Positions 40,827 through 46,555 of a DNA stretch of 64,000 nucleotides are shown here, in pieces (the stretch's first letter is position 1; each line of letters starts with the position of its first letter). Under the pieces are notes generated by a model. It was not told where the DNA came from. It was given only the letters and a program-made list of their open reading frames with translations, and made no database searches. A program made the translations under genes and the position numbers. Location: positions 1 through 64,000 of the forward strand of contig CAJWTV010000002.1 of assembly GCA_913047375.1 (NCBI GenBank), in the 5' to 3' direction. The DNA is from an uncultured Polaribacter sp. GTDB lineage: Bacteria; Bacteroidota; Bacteroidia; Flavobacteriales; Flavobacteriaceae.

Positions 40827-40898
40827 TGGCCTATGGTGTAATTGGTAACACACCGGTTTTTGGTACCGACATTCAAGGTTCGAGTCCTTGTAGGCCAA
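40827..40898 (+). tRNA. tRNA-Gln (anticodon TTG)
   Basis: The 72-nt sequence folds as a cloverleaf: a 7-bp acceptor stem (TGGCCTA with TAGGCCA), a 4-bp D stem (GTGT with ACAC), an anticodon loop TTTTGGT with TTG at 40860-40862, and a T arm CAAGG-TTCGAGT-CCTTG. The discriminator is A at 40898 and CCA is not encoded. The anticodon stem has a C-A mismatch at its outer pair (positions 27-43). It is followed at once by a terminator and preceded by a promoter element. Confidence 0.95.
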
Positions 40899-40899
40899 C

Positions 40900-40932
40900 A
40901 AAAGCTTCAAATTTAAAATTTGAAGCTTTTTT
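40900..40932 (+). terminator. Intrinsic terminator after tRNA-Gln
   Basis: AAAAGCTTCAAATTT and AAATTTGAAGCTTTT form a 15-bp stem with a minimal loop, followed by a T tract, starting 2 nt after the tRNA. It may also serve the convergent UspA gene, which ends at 40936. Confidence 0.88.
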
Positions 40933-40935
40933 GTT

Positions 40936-41763
40936 TTATATTTTAAAAGTTAACATAGGCTTTAAGGCGCTTTTAGATAGATTTTTGCTGATGCTGCCAT
41001 TAAAAAGATGTGATAGACCACTTCTTCCGTGAGTACTTAAAGCAATTAAATCTGCATTTTTTTCTTTCGAGAAGTTTAAAATACCTTTTTCTACAGAAAG
41101 ATCATTGTAAATATTTATTGAGTGGTTTGATAATGTAAACTCACTAATAAATTTTGTGATTTGTTCTTTTGATTTATGAGTACTTTCAAAGTCGTGAGGT
41201 GTGTTGACTTTTAGTAAATGTATTTTGCTTTTAAATTGATTTGCAAAACTTAAAAATTTATTGAATGCTAATTTATTATCTTCTTTAAAGTTAGAGGCGA
41301 AAACAAGTTCTTTTAGTTTAAATGTAGCTACATCTCTTTTTACAACAAGAACTGGTGTTTTTGATGATCTAACAACTTTCTCTGTATTTGAACCTATTAG
41401 TATTTCTTCAAAATTAGAATGCCCTTTAGATCCCATTATAATTAAATCAACTTCTAGTTTTTCAGCATATTTTAAGATACCTTCATATGGATTTTGAAGT
41501 TTAATTATATGTTCAATATGAACATTTTTAGAAAATAAACGCTCTTTAAATTTCACTATTTTTAGTTTTATTTTCCTGAGGTATAACATGCTTTCAGGAA
41601 TACTAAACCGACTGCCAGATCCCATGTCAGTTGCTCCAGAGGGCAGCTCAATTAAGTGTAGCAAATAGATGGTGCTTCCTGATTTTTTTGCGATTTTATT
41701 TGCAACCTTAGAAGCAAATTCAGACTGTTTTGAAAAGTCAACAGGGACTAAGATTTTTCTCAT
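40936..41763 (-). CDS. Tandem universal stress protein (UspA family)
   Basis: Cytoplasmic protein of 275 residues with two Usp domains (about residues 1-145 and 150-275). The first starts with KILVPVDFSKQSEFASKVA and has the nucleotide-binding pattern GSKGHSNFEEILIGSNTEKV followed by TPVLVV (G-2x-G-9x-G(S/T)-like). The second ends with STHGRSGLSHLFNGSISKNL. ATP binding is plausible from these motifs. Tandem Usp proteins are common in Bacteroidota, but specific roles are unknown. It is divergent from rimP and converges with tRNA-Gln. Confidence 0.9.
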   Translation of the reverse strand: MRKILVPVDFSKQSEFASKVANKIAKKSGSTIYLLHLIELPSGATDMGSGSRFSIPESMLYLRKIKLKIVKFKERLFSKNVHIEHIIKLQNPYEGILKYAEKLEVDLIIMGSKGHSNFEEILIGSNTEKVVRSSKTPVLVVKRDVATFKLKELVFASNFKEDNKLAFNKFLSFANQFKSKIHLLKVNTPHDFESTHKSKEQITKFISEFTLSNHSINIYNDLSVEKGILNFSKEKNADLIALSTHGRSGLSHLFNGSISKNLSKSALKPMLTFKI

Positions 41764-41828: not shown

Positions 41829-41861
41829 TTTTTGGTAAGTCGCAAACATTTAGTATATTTG
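41829..41861 (+). promoter_or_regulatory. Promoter of rimP-nusA-infB
   Basis: TTTG at 41831-41834, inside a T-rich TTTTTGG, is followed after 19 nt by TATATTTG (41854-41861), a full match to the Bacteroidota consensus. It would give a leader of roughly 55-60 nt before the preferred rimP start. Confidence 0.75.
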
Positions 41862-41890
41862 CACGAAAATCAGTACAATTGAGAAAATGA

Positions 41891-41915
41891 AGGGGACTAA
41901 TAGTCCCCTCTTTTT
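41891..41915 (+). promoter_or_regulatory. Terminator-like attenuator hairpin in the rimP-nusA-infB leader
   Basis: AGGGGACT and AGTCCCCT form an 8-bp, GC-rich stem around a 3-nt loop, followed directly by CTTTTT. It lies after the promoter and 11 nt before the preferred rimP ATG, so it has the form of an intrinsic terminator inside the leader. Attenuation controlled by NusA, an encoded product, would make sense but is inference. Confidence 0.6.
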
Positions 41916-41925
41916 ATACTTTAAG

Positions 41926-42384
41926 ATGAACGGAAAGGTTAAAGATTTATTAGAAGAAGCATTATCACTTAACGAATCTTTATATTTGATAAGTTTTGAT
42001 ATTTCATCAAATAATAGAATTCAAATTGTAGTTGATGGTGATAATGGTGTACCGCTAAGTGAGTGTATGCGTATTAGTAGAAACATAGAACACAATATTG
42101 ATAGAGAGGAATATGATTTTTCTTTAGAGGTTTCTACACCAGATATTGCCCACCCAATAAAGGTAAAAAGACAGTATGTTAAAAATATTAATAGAATATT
42201 AAAAGTAACTACTGCAGAAGATAGTTTTGAAGGGAGTTTAGTTGAAGCAACAAACAATGAGATTGTTTTAAAGTGGAAAGCAAGAGAGCCAAAGCCGATA
42301 GGCAAAGGAAAAGTTACTGTTGAAAAAACAGCAACTATTTTATATACAGATATTAAAGAAGCAAAAGTGAAGATCGTATTTTAA
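41926..42384 (+). CDS. rimP: Ribosome maturation factor RimP
   Basis: Needed for 30S subunit assembly. The sequence has the RimP pattern: VKDLLEEALSLNESLYLISFDIS, IQIVVDGDNGVPLSECMRISRNIEHNID, DFSLEVSTPDIAHPIK and a C-terminal SH3-like domain. The start was set at ATG 41926 (MNGKVKDLLEE), giving 152 residues. The in-frame ATG at 41887 would translate through the terminator-like hairpin and add 13 residues that do not resemble the family. It is the first gene of rimP-nusA-infB, 11 nt before nusA. Confidence 0.93.
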   Translation: MNGKVKDLLEEALSLNESLYLISFDISSNNRIQIVVDGDNGVPLSECMRISRNIEHNIDREEYDFSLEVSTPDIAHPIKVKRQYVKNINRILKVTTAEDSFEGSLVEATNNEIVLKWKAREPKPIGKGKVTVEKTATILYTDIKEAKVKIVF

Positions 42385-42395
42385 GCAAAAATGAG

Positions 42396-43652
42396 ATGGA
42401 AAATATAGCATTAATTGATTCGTTTTCAGAATTTAAAGATAACAAAAGTATAGACAGAGTTACTCTAATGTCTATTTTAGAAGAGGTTTTTAGAGCTGCC
42501 CTAAAACGTAAGTTTGGGTCTGATGATAATTTTGATATTATTATCAATCCAGATAAGGGAGATTTAGAAATTTGGAGAAATAGAGTTGTCGTAGCAGATG
42601 GTTTTTCTGAAGATGATAATGAAGAAATAGAATTAGCAGAAGCAAGATTAATTGAGCCAGATTTTGAAATTGGTGAAGATGTATCTGAAGAGGTTAAGTT
42701 AGTCAACTTAGGAAGAAGAGCGATTTTAGCATTGCGACAAAACTTAATTTCTAAAATCTATGAGCACGATAGCACTAATATATTTAAGCAATTTAAAGAT
42801 TTAGAAGGCGAGCTATATAGTGCAGAAGTTCATCATATTCGTCACAACGCAATCATTCTATTAGATGATGAGGGAAATGAAATTGTTTTACCTAAAAGCG
42901 AGCAAATTCGTTCAGATTTTTTTAGGAAAGGAGATTCTGTAAGAGGAGTTATTAAAACGGTAGAATTAAGAGGAAATAAGCCAGCAATTATTTTATCTAG
43001 AACATCTCCAGAATTCTTGAACAAATTATTTGAACAAGAAATTCCAGAAGTTTTTGATGGGTTAATTACTGTGGAACGTGTTGCAAGAATTCCTGGTGAA
43101 AAAGCAAAAGTAGCTGTAGATTCTTATGACGACAGGATAGATCCAGTTGGAGCTTGTGTTGGTGTTAAAGGTTCAAGAATTCATGGTATAGTCCGTGAAT
43201 TAGGGAATGAAAATATAGATGTTATTAACTATACCAAAAACGAGCAATTGTTTATCTCAAGAGCATTAAGTCCGGCAAAAGTGACTTCAATGGAAATTGA
43301 AATGTACGAAGAAGAAAAAAACGGAAAGAAAGGTCGTGTTAGTGTGCTTTTAAGACCTGAAGAGGTTTCTAAAGCAATAGGTAGAGGTGGTGTTAATATT
43401 CGATTGGCAAGTGAGTTAACTGGATATGAAATAGATGTTCAAAGAGAAGGTTTAGAGGAAGAAGATGTTGAGTTAACTGAATTTGTAGACGAAATTGAAG
43501 ACTGGGTAATTGTAGAATTCAAGAAAATTGGTTTAGATACTGCAAGAGGAGTTTTAGATGCAAGTGTTGTCGAGCTGGTTAAAAGAACTGATTTAGAAGA
43601 AGAAACAATTATAGATGTTCAAAGAATCTTAAAAGAAGAGTTCGAGGAATAA
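42396..43652 (+). CDS. nusA: Transcription termination/antitermination factor NusA
   Basis: Binds RNA polymerase and nascent RNA and modulates pausing, termination and antitermination. The 418-residue protein has the N-terminal polymerase-binding domain (about 1-130), an S1 domain (about 135-200), and two KH domains (GVKGSRIHGIVRELGNENID and SKAIGRGGVNIRLASELTG). It lacks the C-terminal acidic repeats found in E. coli NusA (495 aa), as expected for this phylum. It lies between rimP and infB in the classic order. Confidence 0.96.
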   Translation: MENIALIDSFSEFKDNKSIDRVTLMSILEEVFRAALKRKFGSDDNFDIIINPDKGDLEIWRNRVVVADGFSEDDNEEIELAEARLIEPDFEIGEDVSEEVKLVNLGRRAILALRQNLISKIYEHDSTNIFKQFKDLEGELYSAEVHHIRHNAIILLDDEGNEIVLPKSEQIRSDFFRKGDSVRGVIKTVELRGNKPAIILSRTSPEFLNKLFEQEIPEVFDGLITVERVARIPGEKAKVAVDSYDDRIDPVGACVGVKGSRIHGIVRELGNENIDVINYTKNEQLFISRALSPAKVTSMEIEMYEEEKNGKKGRVSVLLRPEEVSKAIGRGGVNIRLASELTGYEIDVQREGLEEEDVELTEFVDEIEDWVIVEFKKIGLDTARGVLDASVVELVKRTDLEEETIIDVQRILKEEFEE

Positions 43653-43717: not shown

Positions 43718-46555
43718 ATGTCTGAAGGCAAAACAATGAGGCTTAATAAGGTTTTAAGAGAATTAAATATTTCTCTAGATAGAGCTGTAGAATTTTTAGC
43801 AAAAAACGGACATGACGTTGAAGCTAGGCCTACAACTAAAATATCTGGTGATGTATATCAAGTTTTACTTGATGGTTTTCAAACTGACGCAAGCAAAAAA
43901 GCAGCATCTAAAGAAGTTGGTGAAGAAAAACGGAAAGAGAAAGAAGCGATTCGTTTAGAACATGAAGCTAAATTAGAGAAGAAAAGGTTAGAGGACGAAA
44001 AGAAAGAGCAAGTTATTTTAAAAGCCAAAGCAGAGAAGTTAAAATTGAAAACTGTAGGTAAAATTGATGTTAGCAATTTATCTGGCAAAAAAACTACTGA
44101 AGAAAAAAAACCAGAACATAAGATTTCAGCGAAAGCAGATTCAAAAATTATTATTGAAACTCCCGAAGTTGTTGTTGAGGATTCTCAAGAAATTAAGGAA
44201 ATAACAGAAGCTCCAAAAGTACAAGCAGAAGAAGTTTCGAAATTAAAAGTAAAGAAAGCTCCTAAAAAAGTAACTGCTGTTGAAAAAGAAGCTTTACCAA
44301 GAGTCCCTAAAGAAAAAGTAGTTGAAGAAAAAGGACCGGAGGTTACAGCAGAGAACGCTGAGGCGCTTGTTACACAATATAAAAAGTTAGATGGACCTAA
44401 GATTACAGGTAAAACAATCGACTTAAAACAATTTGAAAAGCCTAAGAAAAAGAAACCTGAGGCTAGGCCAGCAAACGCTAATGATCCAAAAAAGAAGCGT
44501 AAAAGAATTAATAAACCAACTACGAATACATCAACTTCAGGTAAATCTTCACCGGGAAGTAGAGTTGGTCAAAGACCACCCGCAAGAGGAGTCAATACAA
44601 GACCAGGTTTTAGAGGTAGAGTGAATCAAACTCCTGTTAAAAAAGAAGAACCTACAGAAGCTGAAATTCAGAAACAAGTTAGGGATACTTTAGAAAAACT
44701 TCAAGGAAAATCTAGCAAAGGAAAAGGAGCTAAATACCGTAGAAATAAAAGAGAAGCACACAGAGAGCAAACTGAAGCAGAGTTAGAGGCGCAAACTTTA
44801 GATAATAAAATATTAAAAGTAACAGAATTTGTAACTGTAAGTGAAGTTGCTATAATGATGGACGTTCCTGTAACAAATATCATTTCTTCATGTATGATGT
44901 TAGGGATGATGGTTACAATGAATCAGCGTTTAGATGCAGAAACATTAGTTATTGTCGCAGAAGAATTTAATTACAAGGTAGAGTTTATAGGTGCGGAAGT
45001 TGAAGAGTCAATAGAAGAAGTACAAGATAAGCCTGAAGACTTAATAGATCGCGCACCAATAATTACAGTAATGGGTCACGTAGATCATGGTAAAACATCT
45101 TTATTAGATTATATTAGAAAAGCAAATGTTACTGATGGTGAAAGTGGAGGAATTACCCAACATATTGGAGCATATTCGGTAAAAGTTGGTGATCAGAAAA
45201 TAGCATTTTTAGATACGCCAGGTCACGAAGCTTTTACAGCTATGAGAGCTCGTGGAGCTCAGGTAACAGATTTAGTAATTATTGTAGCAGCAGCAGATGA
45301 TGATGTGATGCCTCAAACAAAAGAAGCTATTTCTCATGCGCAAGCAGCAGGAGTGCCTATTATTTTTGCAATTAATAAAGTTGATAAACCTAATGCAAAT
45401 CCAGATAATGTAAAAACTCAGTTAGCAGCTATGAATTTATTAGTTGAAGAATGGGGAGGGAGTATACAATCTCAAGATATTTCTGCAAAAACAGGAGAAG
45501 GAATTCCCGAATTGTTAGAAAAAGTACTATTGGAAGCTGAGATTTTAGAATTAAAAGCTAATCCTAACAAAAATGCAGTTGGTGCCGTTGTTGAAGCCTT
45601 ATTAGATAAAGGTAGAGGTTATGTATCTACGATTTTGGTACAAGCAGGAACTTTAAAAATTGGAGATTACCTTCTAGCTGGAAAGCACAGTGGTAAGATT
45701 AGGGCTATGTTTGATGATAAAGGAACTAATCTAAAAGAAGCAGGGCCTTCTGTTCCAGTATCCATTTTAGGCTTAGATGGTGCGCCTCAAGCTGGTGACA
45801 AGTTTAACGTATTTGATGATGAACGTGAAGCGAAGCAAATAGCTTCAAAACGTTCTCAACTTCAACGTGAGCAGTCTGTTAGAACTCAAAAAACATTAAC
45901 TTTAGATGAAATTGGTCGTAGAATAGCTCTAGGAGATTTTAAAGAGTTAAATATTATATTAAAAGGGGATGTAGATGGTTCTGTTGAAGCATTAACAGAT
46001 TCTTTCCAGAAATTATCAACAGAGGAAATACAAGTAAATATTCTACATAAAGGTGTTGGTGCTATTACGGAAAGTGATGTATTATTAGCTACCGCATCAG
46101 ATGCAATTATTGTAGGATTTAATGTTCGTCCGCAAGGAAATGCTAGAGTTATAGCAGACAGAGAGGAAGTCGATATTAGAACTTATTCTATAATTTATGA
46201 CGCTATCGGTGATTTAAAAGATGCAATGGAAGGCATGTTATCTCCAGATATGAAAGAGGAAATTAGTGGTAATGTAGAAATCAGAGAAGTTTATAAAATT
46301 TCTAAAGTAGGTAATATTGCAGGTTGTATGGTAATTTCAGGTAAGGTCTTTAGGGATTCTAAGGTTAGAATTATCAGAGAAGGAATCGTTGTTCATGATG
46401 GACTTCTTACTTCGCTAAAACGTTTTAAAGACGATGTTAAAGAAGTTGCTAAAGGGTATGATTGTGGTCTTCAAATAAAGGGGTACAACGATATTCAAGA
46501 AGGAGATACACTAGAGGCTTATAAAGAAGTAGCAGTCAAGAAAAAGTTAAAATAA
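43718..46555 (+). CDS. infB: Translation initiation factor IF-2
   Basis: GTPase that brings initiator tRNA to the 30S subunit. The first roughly 430 residues are charged and low complexity (Lys/Glu/Pro-rich helices, then a RGVNTRPGFRGR-type Arg/Gly stretch), preceded by the IF2N motif RLNKVLRELNISLDRAVEFL. The G domain begins with GHVDHGKT at residues 453-460, then DTPGHEAFTAMRARGAQ and NKVDKP. Domains II-IV follow to residue 945. An alternative ATG at 43736 would lose six residues. The gene is 65 nt after nusA and ends the operon at a strong terminator. Confidence 0.97.
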   Translation: MSEGKTMRLNKVLRELNISLDRAVEFLAKNGHDVEARPTTKISGDVYQVLLDGFQTDASKKAASKEVGEEKRKEKEAIRLEHEAKLEKKRLEDEKKEQVILKAKAEKLKLKTVGKIDVSNLSGKKTTEEKKPEHKISAKADSKIIIETPEVVVEDSQEIKEITEAPKVQAEEVSKLKVKKAPKKVTAVEKEALPRVPKEKVVEEKGPEVTAENAEALVTQYKKLDGPKITGKTIDLKQFEKPKKKKPEARPANANDPKKKRKRINKPTTNTSTSGKSSPGSRVGQRPPARGVNTRPGFRGRVNQTPVKKEEPTEAEIQKQVRDTLEKLQGKSSKGKGAKYRRNKREAHREQTEAELEAQTLDNKILKVTEFVTVSEVAIMMDVPVTNIISSCMMLGMMVTMNQRLDAETLVIVAEEFNYKVEFIGAEVEESIEEVQDKPEDLIDRAPIITVMGHVDHGKTSLLDYIRKANVTDGESGGITQHIGAYSVKVGDQKIAFLDTPGHEAFTAMRARGAQVTDLVIIVAAADDDVMPQTKEAISHAQAAGVPIIFAINKVDKPNANPDNVKTQLAAMNLLVEEWGGSIQSQDISAKTGEGIPELLEKVLLEAEILELKANPNKNAVGAVVEALLDKGRGYVSTILVQAGTLKIGDYLLAGKHSGKIRAMFDDKGTNLKEAGPSVPVSILGLDGAPQAGDKFNVFDDEREAKQIASKRSQLQREQSVRTQKTLTLDEIGRRIALGDFKELNIILKGDVDGSVEALTDSFQKLSTEEIQVNILHKGVGAITESDVLLATASDAIIVGFNVRPQGNARVIADREEVDIRTYSIIYDAIGDLKDAMEGMLSPDMKEEISGNVEIREVYKISKVGNIAGCMVISGKVFRDSKVRIIREGIVVHDGLLTSLKRFKDDVKEVAKGYDCGLQIKGYNDIQEGDTLEAYKEVAVKKKLK

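Follow-up and report, generated by a model that had tools for sequence, protein, structure and literature searches.

The window analyzed here is the whole of a 64,000-nucleotide (nt) stretch of DNA from an uncultured Polaribacter sp. (Bacteroidota; Bacteroidia; Flavobacteriaceae; GenBank assembly GCA_913047375.1, contig CAJWTV010000002.1, positions 1 to 64,000, forward strand), which carries the rimP-nusA-infB operon. The leader of this operon contains a hairpin followed by a short run of T, and the hairpin is very likely an intrinsic terminator. From the divergent universal stress protein gene, the order runs through the TATATTTG box, the hairpin and C-TTTTT-ATAC to rimP, nusA and infB:

40936..41763, minus strand: universal stress protein gene, divergent (PF00582)
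41854..41861, plus strand: predicted promoter -7 element TATATTTG of the Bacteroidota TAnnTTTG type, read from the sequence and from the boxes of relatives
41891..41909, plus strand: predicted terminator hairpin (5' arm AGGGGACT, 41891-41898; loop, 41899-41901; 3' arm AGTCCCCT, 41902-41909)
41911..41915, plus strand: U-tract, followed by ATAC, read from the sequence
41926..42384, plus strand: rimP, 152 amino acids, start at 41926 (PF02576 RimP_N, E 1.1e-8)
42396..43652, plus strand: nusA, 418 amino acids, encoding the candidate regulator (PF08529 NusA_N, PF13184 KH_5)
43718..46555, plus strand: infB, encoding IF2 (PF11987, PF00009, PF04760)

The nearest upstream gene points away from the operon, so within the window the hairpin cannot serve any upstream protein gene as its 3' terminator. 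Its stem has eight pairs, five of them G-C, and encloses the 3-nt loop AAT before C-TTTTT; a preliminary description of this DNA, giving an 8-bp hairpin with a 3-nt loop and CTTTTT, is exact. The predicted folding energy of the hairpin is -13.0 kcal/mol, and the 70-nt leader has a z-score of -2.05 relative to 200 dinucleotide shuffles, three of which fold equally well or better. This folding signal by itself is modest; thus, the case for a terminator rests on conservation.

Conservation, covariation and leader architecture

We found RimP in 51 of the 59 related genomes, in 112 of 120 from the family and in 108 of 119 from the class, with the genome of the window counted each time. To all loci of the 59-genome set we added those from 49 out of 111 other family genomes and 89 out of 107 other class genomes (G039 belongs to two sets), which gave 188 rimP leaders; the leaders of 62 family and 18 class genomes fall outside this collection. 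The preliminary description had made its reading depend on conservation of the stem in relatives, and the stem is indeed conserved. The core pattern [AG]GGG[AG]C-N3..8-G[TC]CC[CT][CT] is present in 156 of the 188 leaders when 160 nt are searched (genus, 33/34; family, 51/51; order/class, 72/103) and in 154 when 130 nt are searched. A strict terminator rule that is blind to stem sequence is passed by 167 of the 188 leaders, as compared with a mean of 0.4 and a maximum of 2 in 20 dinucleotide shuffles. Even among the 32 leaders without the core, 27 pass this rule with another stem sequence (mean of 0.1 in 40 shuffles). The loop varies in sequence and in length, being 3, 4, 5, 6, 7 or 8 nt long in 14, 34, 77, 24, 6 and 1 of the 156 core-bearing leaders, respectively. 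Downstream of the 3' arm core, U occupies positions +3 to +6 in 96-100% of the leaders from the genus and the family and in 69-94% of those from the order/class set, and position +9 in 88%, 96% and 96% of genus, family and order/class leaders. In some families of the order the stem is replaced entirely (TTGGGGAGC...GCTCCCCAA; AAGGC...GCCTT; L096, L097, L062 and L099), with a hairpin-like stretch and T-tract still in place, and L062 and L099 fail the terminator rule.

Covariation was assessed in an alignment, A1, of 95 rows (94 distinct) drawn from the 156 core leaders by taking every third family leader, every fourth genus leader and 69 of the 72 order/class leaders. The rows were chosen with a regular expression that fixes the core, which leaves just the flanks and the two basal pairs unaffected by that choice. 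Across the 8-bp stem, 97.3% of the cells are paired (92.9% in shuffles) and 34 cells carry double changes (8.0 in shuffles), giving a covariation score of 0.196 as compared with 0.106 for shuffles. The two basal pairs are maintained in 86/94 and 94/94 rows, using four and five pair types; the outermost pair is seen as G-C, A-U, G-U and C-G.

The preliminary description had placed a consensus promoter ahead of the hairpin. As a sigma-70 promoter the site is unremarkable: in a scan with that consensus it did no better than chance (9/12 matches; 14 such sites in 3 kb vs 13.1 expected). As a promoter of the TAnnTTTG type, the assignment is supported by the relatives, since TWnnTTTG occurs upstream of the stem in 154 of the 156 core-bearing leaders. 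In 113 of these 154, the distance from the end of the box to the stem core is 27-31 nt; the argument lies in this position, there being no shuffle control behind the count. In the two leaders without a match (L048 and L116), rimP begins more than 100 nt after the hairpin, and the promoter was probably cut off by the 160-nt search stretch. The TTTG at 41831-41834 is a possible -33 element. TAnnTTTG is described as the -7 box in Flavobacterium psychrophilum (PMC9723704).

The rimP ATG follows the stem core at a median distance of 17 nt (154 leaders measured). The entire leader would thus span about 50 nt, consisting of a predicted start site, approximately 25 nt of RNA, the hairpin, the U-tract and the start codon. 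In the window, a second ATG at 41887 lies just 5' of the stem and in frame with rimP. Only 13 of the 156 leaders have, within 12 nt on the 5' side of the core, an in-frame ATG from which translation could run on into rimP; in the others there is no ATG at that distance (83), a stop precedes rimP (49) or the frame differs (11). These counts support 41926 as the probable rimP start, the one already preferred in the preliminary description.

Specificity of the motif for rimP leaders

We scanned a collection of 84,980 species for the exact string GAGGGGAC-N3..7-GTCCCCTCTTTTT, which returned at least 118 stretches. Among the matches listed, rimP lies 18-57 nt downstream in 113 of 118, including 76 of the 80 stretches that carry a title. 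Judging by name, we take these 76 to be Bacteroidota, ranging from Flavobacterium, Capnocytophaga and Aquimarina to Mucilaginibacter, Hymenobacter, Fulvivirga and Bacteroidales. Flavobacterium johnsoniae, of which laboratory strains exist, is among the carriers of the motif (L229). The five unconfirmed stretches among the matches listed are L197 (a Clostridia metagenome-assembled genome), L223 (a Rhodospirillaceae metagenome-assembled genome), L272 (Pararcticibacter), L280 and L227; in the last, a promoter box precedes the motif, and only 86 nt of DNA follow it.

Within whole genomes, the exact core GGGGAC-N3..6-GTCCCC was found at 45 places in 35 of the 59 related genomes, and a control pattern read backwards was found once each in 9 of the 59. 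Thirty-five of the 45 places are rimP leaders, assigned by hand-matching positions to the located rimP loci; eight are in G035, one is in G027 and one, in G041, falls within an open reading frame. The five G035 sites that were inspected (L358-L362) all belong to one repeat with a near-identical hairpin, GGGGAC-TAAAA-GTCCCC, beside a T run, and the G027 site (L363) is similar. In L358 the repeat hairpin directly follows a gene matching Y1_Tnp, an IS200-like transposase (PF01797, E 9e-36), and one copy of the repeat in G035 precedes the hairpin of the rimP leader by about 345 nt.

The stem sequence is not a general feature of terminators at this operon. Among 25 terminators found at 34 infB ends of named loci, there was no shared GGGG...CCCC stem. 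Thus, the stem of the rimP leader is frozen while those at the infB end drift. One locus (L357, from G033) has an apparent terminator directly after infB with a G-run stem of its own.

The model R1, which was built from 95 sequences including that of the window, matches the window at 41880-41922 (44.8 bits, E 1.7e-8). Among the 51 genomes where rimP was located, 41 have their best R1 hit in the leader of that gene, counted by hand; in four of the other ten, the best hit was too weak to list. R1 is unspecific at low scores. For 15 hits elsewhere that were inspected, neither RimP nor NusA is encoded within about 1.5 kb on either side. These off-target hits look like ordinary 3' terminators, since 13 of the 15 start no more than 60 nt past the end of an open reading frame on the same strand. 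When leaders were scanned across the window, 4 of 54 were listed, each with a hairpin that doubles as the 3' terminator of the preceding gene; the rimP leader was unlisted, presumably because the script used the upstream ATG as the start. Elsewhere in the window, a tRNA gene (40827-40898, plus strand) is followed directly by an A/T-rich terminator-like hairpin (40900-40930).

Candidate mechanisms of control

Conservation, covariation, the U-tract, the location behind the promoter and a near-confinement to rimP together give strong support to the terminator-like attenuator that had been proposed in the preliminary description. Several results pull the other way. The hairpin (-13.0 kcal/mol) and its run of five T resemble the eight ordinary 3' terminators found for the 54 open reading frames of the window (median, -12.95 kcal/mol; T-run, 5); because both values match, the hairpin is not visibly of a weak, factor-dependent type. 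The terminator rule is failed by 21 of the 188 leaders, 16 with the core and 5 without it (L062, L099, L134, L142 and L164); L164 has no clear hairpin, and L134 and L142 are cut at the edge of the stretch. An A interrupts the U-tract at +8 in 88% of genus and 75% of family leaders, but in 18% of those from the order/class set. Interrupted U-tracts may mark NusA-dependent terminators in Bacillus subtilis, a point on which our reading places no weight. Because of the runs of G and C, covariation controls in which the alignment was slid reach 0.144 at +3; the shuffles, for their part, ignore the relatedness of the rows. Finally, a search that matched in 30 of 117 genomes returned 30 loci, of which 26 are leaders from outside the class; the terminator rule is passed by 18 of these 26 (0.2 in shuffles), and by eye the 5' arm is rich in C and not in G in 11 of the 18; therefore, there is no universal G-run. 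A C-rich 5' arm before the T-tract, such as CGCCC...GGGCG, was seen in other classes of the phylum in L312, L313, L315, L323, L328, L329, L330, L334, L337, L338 and L340.

On balance, we judge it probable that the element is a promoter-proximal intrinsic terminator attenuating rimP-nusA-infB, most likely under negative feedback by NusA. In the course of events that we infer, including the start site, termination in vivo and NusA as effector, transcription would begin a few bases past the TATATTTG box, and after about 25 nt RNA polymerase would make the GGGGAC/GUCCCC hairpin and then the short U-tract. A fraction of the polymerases would release a leader RNA of about 50 nt, and the remainder would read through into rimP, nusA and infB. 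We saw no larger conserved element or antiterminator, as judged from the spacing of box and stem, with no dedicated search for antiterminator pairing. The roughly 25 nt ahead of the stem offer little space for a competing antiterminator hairpin, so that the decision to terminate would probably lie with a protein on the polymerase. The NusA encoded by the operon would be the best candidate for this effector, since NusA is described as promoting hairpin folding in the RNA exit channel (PMC12288461): high NusA would lead to more termination, and low NusA to read-through. The autoregulation by NusA suggested in the preliminary description is the most plausible mechanism because other bacteria offer precedents for it at this operon, some reported and some proposed, and on these we lean toward such feedback. 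More tentatively, the stem might be read by its sequence and not by its shape alone, with the near-invariant GGGGAC/GUCCCC duplex, shared by much of the class, being recognized specifically by NusA or by some other product of the operon. If so, this intrinsic terminator would carry an identity tag that is missing from the freely drifting terminators at the other end of the operon.

The ordinary strength of the hairpin and T-run, the lack of a separate sensing domain and the mere 25-30 nt or so between promoter box and stem would also suit a constitutive partial terminator or pause site, giving a fixed output or coupling transcription to the start of translation, free of feedback. We regard this as unlikely, since it would not need a frozen stem sequence, none of which is shared by the 25 terminators at infB ends, and since NusA is reported to repress the operon in Escherichia coli and to autoregulate by leader termination in Bacillus subtilis. 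Conservation of the stem across the class, beyond what other terminators need, and the closeness of the core to the rimP ATG could instead point to binding of another protein (RimP, IF2 or a ribosomal protein), through which termination or the translation of rimP would be controlled. This strikes us as quite improbable: the papers considered here name NusA as regulator of the operon, with RimP feedback mentioned only as a possibility in the 2010 survey discussed below (PMC2965389), and both the sequence and the length of the loop vary.

Two further readings have little in their favor. The position of the window's ATG at 41887, in frame with rimP, would allow a short upstream frame to be translated through the stem, with ribosome passage deciding termination, or to mark the true rimP start; the ATG survey of the 156 leaders, in which 83 have no such codon and just 13 have one in frame and open to rimP, makes either version highly improbable. 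We give still less credence to the palindrome as an operator, bound at the DNA level by a transcription factor immediately after the promoter. It is near-perfect in close relatives, but the distance between half-sites varies with the loop, from 3 to 8 nt among the 156 leaders, which argues against an operator; moreover, a T-rich tract lies on the rimP side, and base changes preserve RNA pairing, G-U included. Attenuation at a leader terminator, with NusA as the probable effector, remains the explanation we prefer.

Relation to known rimP leaders

Naville and Gautheret described in 2010 (PMC2965389) a rimP-leader known from Gammaproteobacteria and Firmicutes; in their ranking of attenuated gene families rimP comes first, and NusA is the regulator that they propose. 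As described there, that leader resembles the Bacteroidia element in having a terminator hairpin with a G-rich 5' arm, a C-rich 3' arm, a conserved stem sequence and a U-stretch, in preceding rimP-nusA-infB operons and in showing no visible antiterminator; the hairpin there lies 4-130 nt before rimP. Its stem is given as GGGc(...)gCCC, as compared with GGGGAC...GTCCCC here; the G-run and C-run are common to both, but the next pairs, A-U then C-G, are a form of this clade. No word beginning with Bacteroid or Flavobacter occurs in the main text of that paper, supplements aside.

The Rfam family RF01770 (rimP, Gammaproteobacteria) likewise represents a leader of rimP-nusA-infB, ending next to rimP in a G-run/C-run hairpin with a U-tract (E. 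coli), but it differs in comprising 102 positions with two tandem hairpins. Its covariance model (threshold, 47 bits) had no match in the genome, the window or 20 related loci, and no Rfam leader family reached its gathering score in the window or those 20 loci. Six sub-threshold Rfam hits, such as sraA at 21 bits against a gathering score of 56, were taken as chance.

In E. coli, the operon is reported to be repressed by NusA, and two terminators precede rimP. In B. subtilis, NusA is autoregulated through leader termination (Mondal 2016, as described in PMC12288461); there, as proposed here, the entry of transcription into the gene depends on intrinsic termination in the 5' leader, which NusA stimulates, with the role of NusA experimental in that system and predicted in ours. 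For the rimP-nusA-infB operon of Streptococcus agalactiae, PMC4448216 reports short and long transcripts and a short RNA ending 31 nt after the start site at a predicted intrinsic terminator; termination close to the promoter is a shared feature, and NusA feedback is suggested there too, but the phylum is different, and that leader was mapped by RNA-seq whereas ours is read from sequence alone. In F. psychrophilum, PMC9723704 reports an uncharacterized, structured and transcribed rimP 5' element without an Rfam hit that is conserved in other genera of Flavobacteriaceae. Compared by description and not by sequence, this is probably the very element seen here, although the main-text list in which it is named gives neither motif, mechanism nor class-wide spread.

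In the literature on rimP and nusA leaders (mostly open papers, in their main texts), we found no description of a rimP-leader motif from Bacteroidia. The frozen stem raises the question of why one terminator keeps its letters while others change. Our results support the idea that leader-terminator control of rimP-nusA-infB is very widespread in bacteria, and they extend the attenuator of the NusA operon to the Bacteroidia with a testable motif. Leader attenuation of this operon is already known as a kind; the Bacteroidia form, with its motif, spread and architecture, is new.
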